Shown piece by piece: positions 18,766 through 27,095 of a DNA stretch of 64,000 bases (positions are counted from its first letter, which is position 1; each line of letters opens with the position of its first letter). Location: positions 1 through 64,000 of the forward strand of contig NZ_CP109788.1 of the NCBI RefSeq assembly GCF_025857195.1. The letters run 5' to 3'. A program made the position numbers and the translations under genes. This stretch comes from Leisingera thetidis (lineage in GTDB: Bacteria; Pseudomonadota; Alphaproteobacteria; Rhodobacterales; Rhodobacteraceae). The notes beneath the pieces are model-generated. The model was not told where the DNA came from. It made no database searches and worked only from the letters and a program-made list of their open reading frames with translations.

Positions 18766-20217
18766 TCAATCGGGCCAGGGGAGCGAGTAAGTCTTCACGT
18801 TTGTGAAGAACTTCATGGCTTCGGTGACACCTTCCTTGACGGCGTTTCCGCTGTCCTTGATACCACCGAAAGGAGAGGTTTCGATGCGGTAGCCGGGTTG
18901 TTCCCAGATATTGCAGGTGCCGACCTCGAGGCCGTTGATATAGGCAATGGCGCGGCCCAGATCATTGGTGCACACGCCCGAGCTGAGACCGAATGCGGTT
19001 GAGTTCGAGATCGCCATCACCTCTTCATCATTGTCCGGCACGCGCACGATCGGGACAATCGGGCCAAAGGTCTCCTCCATCACCAATTCGCTGTCGTGAG
19101 GCACCTTGTCCACAACGATCGGCGGCAGGAGAGCGCCCCGGCGGCCCGGATTATAGAGGATCTCGGCGCCTTGGGCTTCGGCGAGGAAAACCCGCTTCTC
19201 GAAAAGCTCCGCGGCTTGAGCGTGGATCACGCATCCAAGTTCGGTCCCGGGGTCCTGGGGATCTCCGAACTTGATGGCTTTGGCTTTTGCGAGAACCAAC
19301 GGCACGAATTTGCCGGCCACACTTTCCTGCACGAGGATGCGCTTGATCGCTGTGCAGCGCTGACCTGAATTGCCCGTAGCGCCCGCCACGGCGATGGCTG
19401 CCGCCTTCTCGAGATCGGCATCGCTGAGGTCATTGCAGACGATCAGCGGGTCATTGCCGCCAAGTTCCAGCGCGGTGCGCTTGTAGCCTGCCTTGCCGGC
19501 GATCAGTTTGCCGACCGGAACGCCGCCGGTGAAAGTAATGATGTCGATGTTTTCGTTCACCATCATCTCTTCGCCGATATCCTGCGGCCAACCGGTGACA
19601 ATCTGGAACATTTCGGGCGGCAGGCCTGCCTCGTAAAGAATGTCGGCCAGCGCAATAGCTGTCAGCGGGGTCAACTCCGTCGGCTTGCACACCATGCAGT
19701 TATTGGTGGCAATCGACGGCGCGACCTTGTGACTGACCATATTCAGCGGGTGGTTGAAGGGCGTGATTGCTGAAATCGCCTTCACAGGCTCGCGCTTGGT
19801 GAAGATCTTGCGGTTCTTGCCGTTGTGGGTCAGGTCGCAGGAGAAGATCTCGCCGTCATCATTCAGCGCCTGAGCGGCAGCAAACTGATAGACGTCCTGG
19901 GCCCGCCTGGTTTCATAGATGGCGTGCTGGTAGCAGATACCCAGCTCCAGAGTCAGCCATTTGGCCAGATATTCGCGCCGCTCACCGATTAATTCACCTG
20001 CACGCTGCAGGATCCGGCTGCGTTCATAGCGGGTCAGCCCGGGTTTGTAGTTCGCCGCGATTTCAAAGGCCTGACGCGCATGTTGGGCCGTGCCCGCGGG
20101 CACAGTGCCGACGACCTCATCGGTGTAGGGGTATTTTACCTCGATCACCTCTTCGGTGAAGACAACCTTGCCCCCAATGCGCATCCCTTCTTCACGGATT
20201 TCAATCTTGTCTTTCAT
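18766..20217 (-). CDS. phnY: Phosphonoacetaldehyde dehydrogenase
   Basis: A 483-residue aldehyde dehydrogenase that oxidises phosphonoacetaldehyde to phosphonoacetate with NAD. General base E251 is in ELGGN, catalytic C288 in GNSGQRCTA, and N155 in TPFNHPLN. The start is the ATG at 20217, with AAAGG about 11 bases upstream; a TTG at 20235 is possible. It follows phnA by 18 bp. Its substrate is assigned from the neighbouring phosphonoacetate hydrolase and phosphonate importer. In known operons PhnW supplies the aldehyde, but no PhnW is present here. Confidence 0.88.
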   Translation of the reverse strand: MKDKIEIREEGMRIGGKVVFTEEVIEVKYPYTDEVVGTVPAGTAQHARQAFEIAANYKPGLTRYERSRILQRAGELIGERREYLAKWLTLELGICYQHAIYETRRAQDVYQFAAAQALNDDGEIFSCDLTHNGKNRKIFTKREPVKAISAITPFNHPLNMVSHKVAPSIATNNCMVCKPTELTPLTAIALADILYEAGLPPEMFQIVTGWPQDIGEEMMVNENIDIITFTGGVPVGKLIAGKAGYKRTALELGGNDPLIVCNDLSDADLEKAAAIAVAGATGNSGQRCTAIKRILVQESVAGKFVPLVLAKAKAIKFGDPQDPGTELGCVIHAQAAELFEKRVFLAEAQGAEILYNPGRRGALLPPIVVDKVPHDSELVMEETFGPIVPIVRVPDNDEEVMAISNSTAFGLSSGVCTNDLGRAIAYINGLEVGTCNIWEQPGYRIETSPFGGIKDSGNAVKEGVTEAMKFFTNVKTYSLPWPD

Positions 20218-20235
20218 GTGCGTCAGACCTTTCAA

Positions 20236-21480
20236 TTACAGTGCGGCCGCTTCGGTTGCGTAGAAGAACGCATCGAAGTTGCGCAGGACAGGGCGTTCCG
20301 GCAGGGCCAGCACCCGGTTACAGATGAACGGCACTTCCTGTTCGGTCAGGCCACCATGGCTCCGCAGCGGTTCCTTGAGCGCCGCCAGGTCGTGGCGGTG
20401 TTCGGAGGTGCCGATGCAGATGTTCTCGCCGGAGATCATCACAATGTCCCCGATCCGGTCCGAGGGCAGCTCAAAGGCCGCCACGGCTTGGGCATTGGTC
20501 AGCACATGGGTGATCCCTTCGGTGGCGCGCAGTTTGGCAATGATGTCCTCCTGATCCGCACCTTCGGGCAGATAGCAGGTGGCAAAGGAGCCAAGCGCAC
20601 CGTGGTGAACCACATACGGGTCAGTGATCGGCAGGATCACACGCGCCGCATCCTTGCCCAGCCAGTCATCCATCAGGTCCTGGCAATAGATCACATTGGG
20701 CGACCCATCGGCGTGATGCTTTGGCTTCATCCCGTGATCCGCGGTCACGATGATCGCGGCGCCGAGCGCATCCAGCTCACCCAGGTACCGGTCGAACATT
20801 TCGTAGAAATCCAGCGCGCCCTGCTGTTCCGGAGCAAACTTGTGCTGGATGTAATCGGTGGTCGACAGATACATGACGTCCGGCTTGAACTCTTTCAGGA
20901 GTTTCACGCCGGCTGCAAAGACGAACTCGGACAATTCTGCCGAGTAAACCTCCGGCACGTCCATGCCCAGCCAATCAGAGGCATTGTCGATGCCATGCTC
21001 TGTCCTGGTGGTCTCACCCGAACGTTCCGAGGAAAACGCCACCGCGCGCTCATCGTGAAACCGAAGACCCGCCCCCAGGAGCGCGCGCAGCTTGTCCTTT
21101 GCGGTGACCATGGCGACGCGGTATCCGGCCTCGTAAAACTGAGAGAAGATGGTGGGCGCGCGCAGGAAGCGCACATCGTTCATCATCACCTCTTCGCCGC
21201 TGTCCGGGTCGATCAGGTAATTGCCGCAGATCCCGTGCACCACCGGCGGGCGGCCGGTGGCAATGCTGAGGTTGTTGGGGTTGGTGAACGACGGGATCAC
21301 CGAATGGGCCAGGCGGTCCGTCCCTTCCTCGCGCATCCGCTTGAGGTTCGGCATCAGGCCCTTGGCGATGGCCACGTCCAGATAGTCCGCTTCGCAGCCG
21401 TCGAGACAAATCGCAATCGCACAGGTTTTCGGTGCAGCATAGGCACGCCCATTGGCGACAACCGGGGTATGAGTGGTCAT
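20236..21480 (-). CDS. phnA: Phosphonoacetate hydrolase
   Basis: A 414-residue alkaline-phosphatase-superfamily zinc hydrolase that splits phosphonoacetate into acetate and phosphate. The expected active site is complete: D27 (CLDGCE), nucleophile T66 (PSFTNPNN), D209/H213 (TTDYIQH), D248/H249 (TADHG) and H375 (RSHGG). Their spacing matches characterised PhnA. The start at 21480 is chosen for an AAGGA site; the longer upstream reading overlaps the end of the permease gene. It makes the pathway independent of C-P lyase and PhnX. Confidence 0.93.
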   Translation of the reverse strand: MTTHTPVVANGRAYAAPKTCAIAICLDGCEADYLDVAIAKGLMPNLKRMREEGTDRLAHSVIPSFTNPNNLSIATGRPPVVHGICGNYLIDPDSGEEVMMNDVRFLRAPTIFSQFYEAGYRVAMVTAKDKLRALLGAGLRFHDERAVAFSSERSGETTRTEHGIDNASDWLGMDVPEVYSAELSEFVFAAGVKLLKEFKPDVMYLSTTDYIQHKFAPEQQGALDFYEMFDRYLGELDALGAAIIVTADHGMKPKHHADGSPNVIYCQDLMDDWLGKDAARVILPITDPYVVHHGALGSFATCYLPEGADQEDIIAKLRATEGITHVLTNAQAVAAFELPSDRIGDIVMISGENICIGTSEHRHDLAALKEPLRSHGGLTEQEVPFICNRVLALPERPVLRNFDAFFYATEAAAL

Positions 21481-21560
21481 GGGAGAGGTTCCTTCTTTTT
21501 CCAGGGCTCGCCAGAGGTGCGACGCCGGCCCCGTTTCGGTTTTCTGATTGTTGAGCTGGC

Positions 21561-26106: not shown

Positions 26107-26113
26107 AAACTTC

Positions 26114-26207
26114 CTCACACCGTCTGTTGATGATCGATCGATCTGTTTTCGCTTGAGGAAAAGTGTGTGAGCAATCTATCTATATGTCCAATTGATTGTT
26201 TCAATCA
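26114..26207. promoter_or_regulatory. Divergent phosphonate promoter region with LysR-type operator
   Basis: The spacer between the alcohol dehydrogenase and lysR genes is AT-rich. It contains TGATTG-TTT-CAATCA (26193-26207), an inverted repeat of LysR-box type. CTCACAC (26114-26120) and GTGTGAG (26165-26171) form a second distant inverted pair, around a GATCGATCGATC palindrome. The repeated CTATATG words at 26179-26185 and 26211-26217 add to the pattern. A LysR activator site controlling both directions is likely. Confidence 0.55.
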
Positions 26208-26225
26208 GATCTATATGCTGAGCCT

Positions 26226-27095
26226 ATGCTAAAATCTGAACTCCGCTCCTTTCATGCCGTTGCACAGCACTCAGGATTTTCGGCTGCCTCCAAGGTTCTC
26301 AATGTCAGCCAGCCGACGCTGTCGTCACAGGTGAAAGCCCTTGAGCAAAGGTACAGTGTCGAGCTGTTCGCCCGTCTCGGGCGCAAGGTTCAACTCACCG
26401 CGGCCGGCAAGGAACTCTTCGAGATAACGTCGAGACTTAACCAGGCAGAAACGGATGCCGAGAACCTGCTGGATTCCTTCCGCGGGCTTCACAAGGGTTC
26501 TTTGAACATCGCAGCGGTTGGACCGTTTCACGCGACGAACATGATTGTCGCCTTCAAGTCCAGGCATCCCTCGATCGAAGTCGGTGTGCGCTTTGGCAAC
26601 TCGCAAAGGTGCTTTGAGCGGATCATCTCGCTTGAAGCCGACGTCGGCATCATCGCGGAAGTTCCAACTGATGCGCGTGTGGAAGTCGAACCGTACAGTC
26701 AGCACAACGTGGTCGTTTTCGTCAATTCTGAACATCCGTTCTTCAGCAGAGAGAGCATATCCCTTGACGAGTTGGACGGTCAGCCTGTCGTGCGCCGTGA
26801 AGAGGGCTCCACCACCAGGTCCGCGATTGAGGAAGAACTGAACAGGAAAGGGATAAACATCCACCCGGTCTTGGAGCTCGGAAGCCGGGAGGCCATTTGG
26901 AAGGCGGTGGAACAAGGTTTGGGAATAGGGTTCGTCGCTGATTTCGAGTTTGTGCCACATGCCAATCTTCGTGCCATCCCGATCAATGACGCTCAGGTCA
27001 AGACCGGCTACTATCTTGCCTATTTGAAAGAGAGAAAACACTCTCGGCTTATTCGCTCCTTCGCTGAAATCGCAATTGAAACAGTCGCGAGCTGA
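26226..27095 (+). CDS. LysR-family regulator of the phosphonate operon
   Basis: A 289-residue LysR-type regulator. The N-terminal helix-turn-helix (MLKSELRSFHAVAQHSGFSAASKVLNVSQPTLSSQVKALE) precedes a substrate-binding domain (GSLNIAAVGPF... VEQGLGIGFV). The ATG at 26226 matches the usual LysR start; an earlier start at 26196 would cross the operator. It is divergent from the alcohol dehydrogenase gene, so it probably activates the phosphonate genes in response to substrate. That fits use of phosphonate as a carbon source regardless of phosphate supply. The 244 bp after it show nothing recognisable. Confidence 0.92.
   Translation: MLKSELRSFHAVAQHSGFSAASKVLNVSQPTLSSQVKALEQRYSVELFARLGRKVQLTAAGKELFEITSRLNQAETDAENLLDSFRGLHKGSLNIAAVGPFHATNMIVAFKSRHPSIEVGVRFGNSQRCFERIISLEADVGIIAEVPTDARVEVEPYSQHNVVVFVNSEHPFFSRESISLDELDGQPVVRREEGSTTRSAIEEELNRKGINIHPVLELGSREAIWKAVEQGLGIGFVADFEFVPHANLRAIPINDAQVKTGYYLAYLKERKHSRLIRSFAEIAIETVAS

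Follow-up and report, generated by a model that had tools for sequence, protein, structure and literature searches.

A phosphonate operon headed by an alcohol dehydrogenase in Leisingera thetidis: a candidate hydrolytic route for 2-hydroxyethylphosphonate

The first 64,000 nucleotides of contig NZ_CP109788.1 of Leisingera thetidis (assembly GCF_025857195.1; hereafter, the window) carry the phosphonate operon psrA-phnD-phnC-phnE-phnE-phnA-phnY, in which a group III (Fe-type) alcohol dehydrogenase, PsrA, is encoded where the transaminase gene phnW would be expected. The operon probably represents a dedicated hydrolytic pathway that would convert the natural phosphonate 2-hydroxyethylphosphonate (HEP) to acetate and inorganic phosphate (Pi). 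With somewhat less assurance, PsrA is likely to mark a dedicated, proteobacteria-wide hydrolytic HEP pathway, wherein one dehydrogenase is plugged onto either PhnY and PhnA (PhnYA) or PhnX, yielding acetate (or acetaldehyde) and Pi rather than ethylene, potentially serving as a source of both carbon and phosphorus, and occurring also in genomes of 1.2-1.4 Mb without PhnW. An initial annotation of the window had proposed the dehydrogenase as the step through which HEP reaches PhnY and PhnA; gene neighbourhoods, phnW-free genomes, co-occurrence and clade structure lend this proposal comparative support, the direction of the reaction being read from gene content.

In the proposed pathway, HEP would be imported by PhnDCEE and oxidised by PsrA with NAD(P)+ to phosphonoacetaldehyde (PAA). 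PhnY would oxidise PAA to phosphonoacetate, which PhnA would hydrolyse to acetate and Pi, both steps being of established chemistry with strong family assignments. The oxidation of HEP is unfavourable alone and would be pulled by the aldehyde dehydrogenase step of PhnY. The divergent LysR-type regulator probably induces the operon on its substrate, while a Na/Pi protein encoded downstream might conceivably export surplus Pi.

The PhnDCEE importer, PhnY, PhnA, the leading Fe-type alcohol dehydrogenase and the divergent LysR, all named at 18766-27095 in the initial annotation, were confirmed by profile scores and strands. The seven genes form a tightly spaced or overlapping minus-strand run (18766-26118), with the LysR gene divergent from it. 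Judged against the curated cut-offs of NCBIfam profiles, PsrA is a member of TIGR03405 (Phn_Fe-ADH) by score (431.7 bits, cut-off 423.7), and the cut-offs are likewise exceeded by PhnA (TIGR02335; 491.5, cut-off 407.55), PhnY (TIGR03250; 730.8, cut-off 635.65), PhnC (TIGR02315; 308.4, cut-off 266.1) and PhnE1 (TIGR01097; 251.2, cut-off 216.7). PhnE2 scores slightly below the latter cut-off (212.0), PhnD falls short of TIGR03431 (221.7 against 261.1) while passing TIGR01098 (204.8 against 112.05), and LysR remains below TIGR03339 (294.6 against 341.1); for these three the equivalog or subfamily cut-off is missed, yet family membership is clear. Near end-to-end alignments were obtained for PhnA with the solved enzyme 3szy (687 bits) and for PhnY with 4i3t (745 bits); the nearest solved match of PhnD is PtxB (5o2j), with E. 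coli PhnD (3p7i) matched as well. From family alignments, psrA likely starts at ATG 26106 rather than at GTG 26118 of the mechanical open reading frame (ORF), and the LysR gene likely starts at ATG 26226 rather than at TTG 26196.

The identity of the PsrA product is best approached through the neighbourhoods of psrA in other genomes. Forty distinct psrA loci were assembled: the window, six from plasmid records, 13 among the matches listed in a genome-contig scan (80 loci, of which 64 were other Fe-type alcohol dehydrogenases or unclear and went uncounted) and 20 from draws of 385, 398 and 390 genomes, L147 being dropped as a duplicate of L045. Membership of the psrA group was first decided by identity to two reference alcohol dehydrogenases and then checked by tree; neighbours were scored by tblastn against reference proteins in stretches of at most ~10 kb on each side, shorter at contig ends. 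Within these stretches, phnA is present in 14 of the 40 loci (window, L033, L038, L042, L043, L045, L046, L119, L125, L126, L144, L150, L151 and L156) and phnX in nine (L032, L036, L044, L048, L049, L051, L146, L148 and L149), whereas no locus holds both, and neither phnW nor pepM was matched in any. Two non-homologous PAA-consuming routes, PhnX and PhnYA, hence alternate beside one dehydrogenase; as PAA is the sole metabolite consumed by both, this alternation is the strongest single argument that PAA is the product of PsrA. The gene order of the window recurs in L119, which comes from a different family.

At the level of whole genomes, 22 carrying psrA were compared (that of the window and 21 others): phnW was found in 16, phnA in 17 and phnX in four, and phnA or phnX in 21. 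Six of these genomes are without phnW (G337, G375, G576, G644, G453 and G556), and in all six phnA or phnX resides in the psrA cluster. Duplicate sets of PAA-consuming enzymes, one near phnW and the other with psrA, were encountered in the window's genome (G000), G681 and G713 for phnA and in G436 for phnX. Among 385 genomes drawn from the class, a family search (E <= 1e-80) returned 12, two of which were set aside (G318, pepM-linked, and G196, unclear; both without phnA). In this single draw, phnA is present in 10 of the 10 psrA-clade genomes vs 34 of the 375 others (p 1.4e-10 by Fisher test, with no correction for kinship). When 390 genomes were drawn from the order, four had psrA-clade genes and three further members of the genus had none, so the operon is regarded as an accessory trait.

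The remainder of the window's own genome (5.47 Mb, eight contigs, completeness score 100%) clarifies the relation of the operon to the degradation of 2-aminoethylphosphonate (AEP). The window opens contig C2 (355,522 bases). PhnW scores above its cut-off on contigs C1 and C4 (461.8 bits each) with no match of the family on C2, PhnJ of the C-P lyase is matched on C1 only, and PhnX has no match above cut-off anywhere in the genome. The lack of PhnW, PhnX and C-P lyase described in the initial annotation thus holds for the operon, for C2 (PhnW and PhnJ) and, in the case of PhnX, for the genome, but not for PhnW (C1, C4) and PhnJ (C1) genome-wide. Behind phnW on C1 lie phnA (79% identity with the window PhnA), phnY (84.7%) and pbfA (NF049939; 660.5, cut-off 525), and the locus adjoins a LysR gene (32.5% to the window LysR) and apparent ABC importer genes (unscored). 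Since this phnW already has a phnA, a phnY and a pbfA beside it, the window operon is not required to complete that set; it is a second, paralogous PhnY/PhnA set with psrA replacing phnW, and would work beside, not inside, the phnW locus. The possibility, considered at the outset, of a phnW elsewhere and an operon needed only for AEP is therefore borne out in its first half alone, and the operon as the AEP pathway of the genome is ruled out by the separate phnW-phnA-phnY-pbfA locus. This 5.7 kb stretch is itself duplicated between C1 and C4 at 99.98% (L017 4904-10611; L018 4850-10558), the C4 copy being without the ABC importer genes. No inverted repeat or mobile element is visible by eye at its ends, and an assembly effect is possible.

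PsrA also differs as a protein from its pepM-linked relatives. In seven other loci, an alcohol dehydrogenase 38-43% identical to that of the window is encoded directly behind pepM and ppd. In a 71-row tree the 40 psrA rows lie on one side of a branch (support 100/100) and the seven pepM-linked rows outside it, so the two operon types differ in protein as well as in neighbourhood. The PhpC/FomC/DhpG-type PAA reductases of phosphonate biosynthesis, which belong to the same protein family and presumably act on the same PAA/HEP pair, are set apart by their pepM-ppd linkage (the seven loci) and by the separate clade of the window enzyme, pepM/ppd adjacency being seen in 0 of the 40 psrA loci. All four metal ligands reported earlier for the dehydrogenase (D190, H194, H259 and H273, counted from ATG 26106) are invariant in family alignments of 12, 50 and 42 members. 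An AlphaFold2 model of PsrA attained a pLDDT of 92.4 and a pTM of 0.91, and the best solved match, by family profile and by fold alike, is the sulfoacetaldehyde reductase BkTauF (6jko). Isethionate, the product of BkTauF, is the sulfonate analogue of HEP. BkTauF (6jko/6jkp) oxidises isethionate with NAD+ in vitro (PMC6616044, in part); it differs from PsrA in its sulfonate substrate, its physiologically reductive role and a Gln that replaces one metal His. As its activity is restored more by Zn than by Fe (PMC6616044, in part), PsrA may, by analogy, employ Zn rather than Fe. The earlier link to the Fe-dehydrogenase PhpC stands with two amendments: the metal could be Zn, and the clade is separate from that of the pepM-linked, PhpC-like reductases.

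A comparison of 29 psrA and four pepM-linked proteins with 22 other Fe-type alcohol dehydrogenases revealed that T147, W149, S158, W200, N201, T253, T255, T266, C277 and R349 of PsrA are common to all four pepM-linked reductases and rare in the 22 others. Residues F252, T257 and F265 of BkTauF (numbered as in the paper; the chain numbers of the alignment are 5 higher) align with F250, T255 and Y263 of PsrA; the substitutions T257A and F265A abolish isethionate oxidation and F252A lowers it (PMC6616044, in part). T255 is conserved in 29/29 psrA and 4/4 pepM-linked proteins, with T in 3/22 of the others, and is the only one of the three that discriminates, since F250 and Y263 did not survive selection for rarity among other Fe-type alcohol dehydrogenases.

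Several observations weigh against a dedicated HEP pathway. PsrA clears the TIGR03405 cut-off by 8 bits only, and BwSarD, which has the same activity as BkTauF, is without the substrate-site residues of the latter (PMC6616044, in part), so the matching residues are supportive and no proof. Neither phnA nor phnX is nearby in 17 of the 40 psrA loci (13 of which possess a PhnDCE importer), in L123 and L124 none of the phosphonate genes of the reference set was matched, and L126 carries a BADH-like aldehyde dehydrogenase, not PhnY. Just beyond the counted stretches, phnW lies ~11 kb (G378) and ~12 kb (G602) from psrA, while G847 has phnW with neither phnA nor phnX, its psrA contig ending soon past the importer genes. 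In eight of the 22 psrA genomes (G087, G056, G280, G358, G182, G1097, G531 and G602), the sole phnA or phnX is near phnW and away from psrA (5 kb apart in G531); in G001 they are carried by different contigs. In those eight, psrA would feed the phnW-linked enzymes or run in reverse, so that gene content alone cannot set the direction. These eight genomes are also a ground for regarding PsrA as a reductase that turns PAA, made from AEP via PhnW, into HEP for phosphonate biosynthesis, as proposed for pepM-free phpC (Lockwood et al. 2022). Half of the phpC genes lie apart from pepM and are proposed to make HEP from AEP via phnW (PMC9381506, in part), BkTauF is physiologically a reductase (PMC6616044, in part), and PAA reduction is the presumed activity of the pepM-linked relatives (7 loci). 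Nevertheless, a reductive role is judged improbable: the fetched psrA loci offer importers and PAA-consuming enzymes in place of phnW, six of the 22 genomes are wholly without phnW, and the psrA clade stands apart from the pepM-linked rows.

Just as improbable is the oxidation of a related alcohol (a HEP ester released in the cell, or another hydroxyphosphonate), in which case PAA would still be the product. Marine dissolved organic matter contains HEP in esterified form (PMC5649143, in part), and the importers adjoining psrA vary among PhnDCE(E), a DppA-like system and MFS proteins. HEP is, however, the simplest alcohol that gives PAA, and no conserved esterase was recognised next to psrA in the annotated plasmid records, where no systematic search was made. 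The importers also bear on the nature of the ligand. E177 and D205 of E. coli PhnD are contacts of the AEP amine. Among 26 psrA-linked PhnDs, the position aligned to E177 (the alignment being uncertain by a column) is E in one, and that aligned to D205 is D in nine, window included; given this alignment uncertainty, the pattern is at most suggestive of a non-amino ligand. The PhnDs adjoining psrA in these 26 loci fall into two subtypes. In the psrA cluster of L144 (10471-11826; G681), which holds a phnA-Na/Pi pair, an MFS protein shows a resemblance, at scores under the family cut-offs, to the organophosphate transporters PgtP/GlpT.

The least probable reading makes PsrA an accessory enzyme (for acetaldehyde or another by-product) or a bystander in an operon for imported PAA or phosphonoacetate, or for supplementing AEP use: PhnX does release acetaldehyde, and phnA without phnW, psrA or phnY in the stretch (6/7 examined) suggests that phosphonoacetate itself may be a natural substrate, yet phnYA clusters carry psrA although they release acetate and not acetaldehyde, phnA accompanies psrA in all ten psrA-clade genomes, and the PsrA-specific residues are shared with the pepM-linked reductases. 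Of the 34 genomes with phnA but no psrA, 27 possess phnW; the other seven count against the HEP pathway, as a lack of phnW does not by itself establish psrA as the PAA source. In one of these seven (G030), phnY is near phnA and is immediately followed by a TIGR03364 FAD oxidoreductase; in the other six no phnY was found in the stretch around phnA, although three of the seven stretches are short. A phnY without phnW thus had a candidate PAA source next to it, which speaks for the HEP pathway, whereas phnA alone can lack any. The G030 locus (L201; genome of 1.4 Mb, same genus as G337) combines phnA-phnY with the TIGR03364 oxidoreductase and a PiT-DUF47 pair where G337 has psrA, and the funnel enzyme appears, from gene content, to have been exchanged between these close relatives.

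In relation to known systems, the operon shares PhnY, PhnA, the central PAA and hydrolytic Pi release with the PhnW-PhnY-PhnA (and PhnW-PhnX) pathways of AEP degradation. It differs in that it would start with a dehydrogenase acting on an alcohol, has no transaminase, would free no amino nitrogen and possesses its own importer and regulator. The funnel enzymes PbfA, PbfB-D and PbfF (Zangelmi 2021, 2023; Ruffolo 2025) are likewise ancillary and bring other phosphonates to PAA; in contrast to PsrA, their substrates bear an amino group, and PbfF is of another protein family. HEP oxidation has been raised as a less likely role for PbfF (PMC12366243, in part). The interconversion of PAA and HEP is listed as reversible in a 2025 paper (PMC11933879, in part). 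Names such as Phn_Fe-ADH, 'PsrA' and 'phosphonoacetaldehyde reductase' (TIGR03405, NCBI) are attached to PsrA homologues, the family name asserting no catabolic direction; no open-access paper was found that uses 'PsrA' in this sense, nor was the meaning of the name found. HEP is also a substrate of C-P lyase, present elsewhere in G000, which acts by radical cleavage to ethylene (Sulfitobacter; PMC5649143, in part) as against the proposed hydrolysis to acetate. A C-P lyase strain degrades HEP with release of ethylene, a route tied to phosphate shortage (PMC5649143, in part). No report of a hydrolytic HEP route was found among the open-access papers listed, and as subscription papers were mostly outside the search, this is no proof of novelty; the operon is a plausible new entry into a known hydrolytic phosphonate pathway. 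If so, Pi and acetate would be released without ethylene. Gas measurements would then have to be interpreted differently as a record of HEP turnover, and many genes annotated as 'phosphonoacetaldehyde reductase' or phpC would be assigned to breakdown instead of synthesis.

The features of the operon and its surroundings are compiled in Table 1. LysR homologues adjoin psrA in most of the fetched loci, and the core TTGAAACAATCAA of the inverted repeat between the LysR gene and psrA, a candidate LysR site, recurs upstream of psrA in L038. A Pho-box scan yielded three matches in the window at <=3 mismatches (3.18 expected) and none near the psrA promoter, although alphaproteobacterial boxes may differ; Pho-box control of the operon is thus unsupported.

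Table 1. Coordinates of the phosphonate operon and adjoining features in the window
Feature	Position	Strand	Basis
psrA, group III (Fe-type) alcohol dehydrogenase, proposed to oxidise HEP	24979..26106	-	TIGR03405, PF00465, PF25137
phnD, phosphonate-type substrate-binding protein	24025..24930	-	TIGR01098, PF12974
phnC, ABC transporter ATPase	23221..23973	-	TIGR02315
phnE1, permease	22396..23217	-	TIGR01097
phnE2, permease	21561..22391	-	TIGR01097
phnA, phosphonoacetate hydrolase	20236..21564	-	TIGR02335, 3szy alignment
phnY, phosphonoacetaldehyde dehydrogenase	18766..20235	-	TIGR03250, 4i3t alignment
LysR-type regulator, divergent	26226..27095	+	TIGR03339 (phn_lysR), below cut-off
Na/Pi cotransporter-PhoU protein, downstream of phnY	16962..18647	-	PF02690, PF01895, NF037997
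Inverted repeat TGATTG-TTT-CAATCA, LysR-psrA intergenic, candidate LysR site	26193..26207	.	read from sequence
Hairpin and short run of T past phnY, possible terminator	18730..18755	-	read from sequence

Downstream, the gene for the Na/Pi-PhoU protein, not named in the initial annotation (NF037997, 114.8, above 50; TIGR00704, 154.9, below 210.1) begins ~118 bp past phnY, beyond a hairpin that folds at -20 kcal/mol with z = -1.03, which is statistically unremarkable, and that was not called in a terminator scan. With the hairpin visible but unremarkable, the gene is possibly part of the transcription unit, in a role in Pi handling. Homologues of the Na/Pi protein score above the bar in two of the 40 psrA loci (window and L144). 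The psrA cluster of L126 (G375, 1.24 Mb) combines phnA, phnDCEE and the BADH-like dehydrogenase with a PiT-DUF47 pair. Na/Pi or PiT genes also adjoin phnA without psrA (L202, L204, L201), and Na/Pi homologues lie near unrelated alcohol dehydrogenases too (L079, L116), which makes Na/Pi export weak as a psrA trait; at most, the link goes with phnA generally. Cells that use AEP for nitrogen are reported to export Pi (PMC8316502, in part). In L202 (7532-10527) and L204 (7481-10495), phnA adjoins a Na/Pi cotransporter homologue with no phnY or phnW within the stretch, pairs that could possibly serve phosphonoacetate use with phosphate export. Elsewhere in the window, the ORFs at 49756-54945 read by eye as a histidine-utilisation (hut) cluster.

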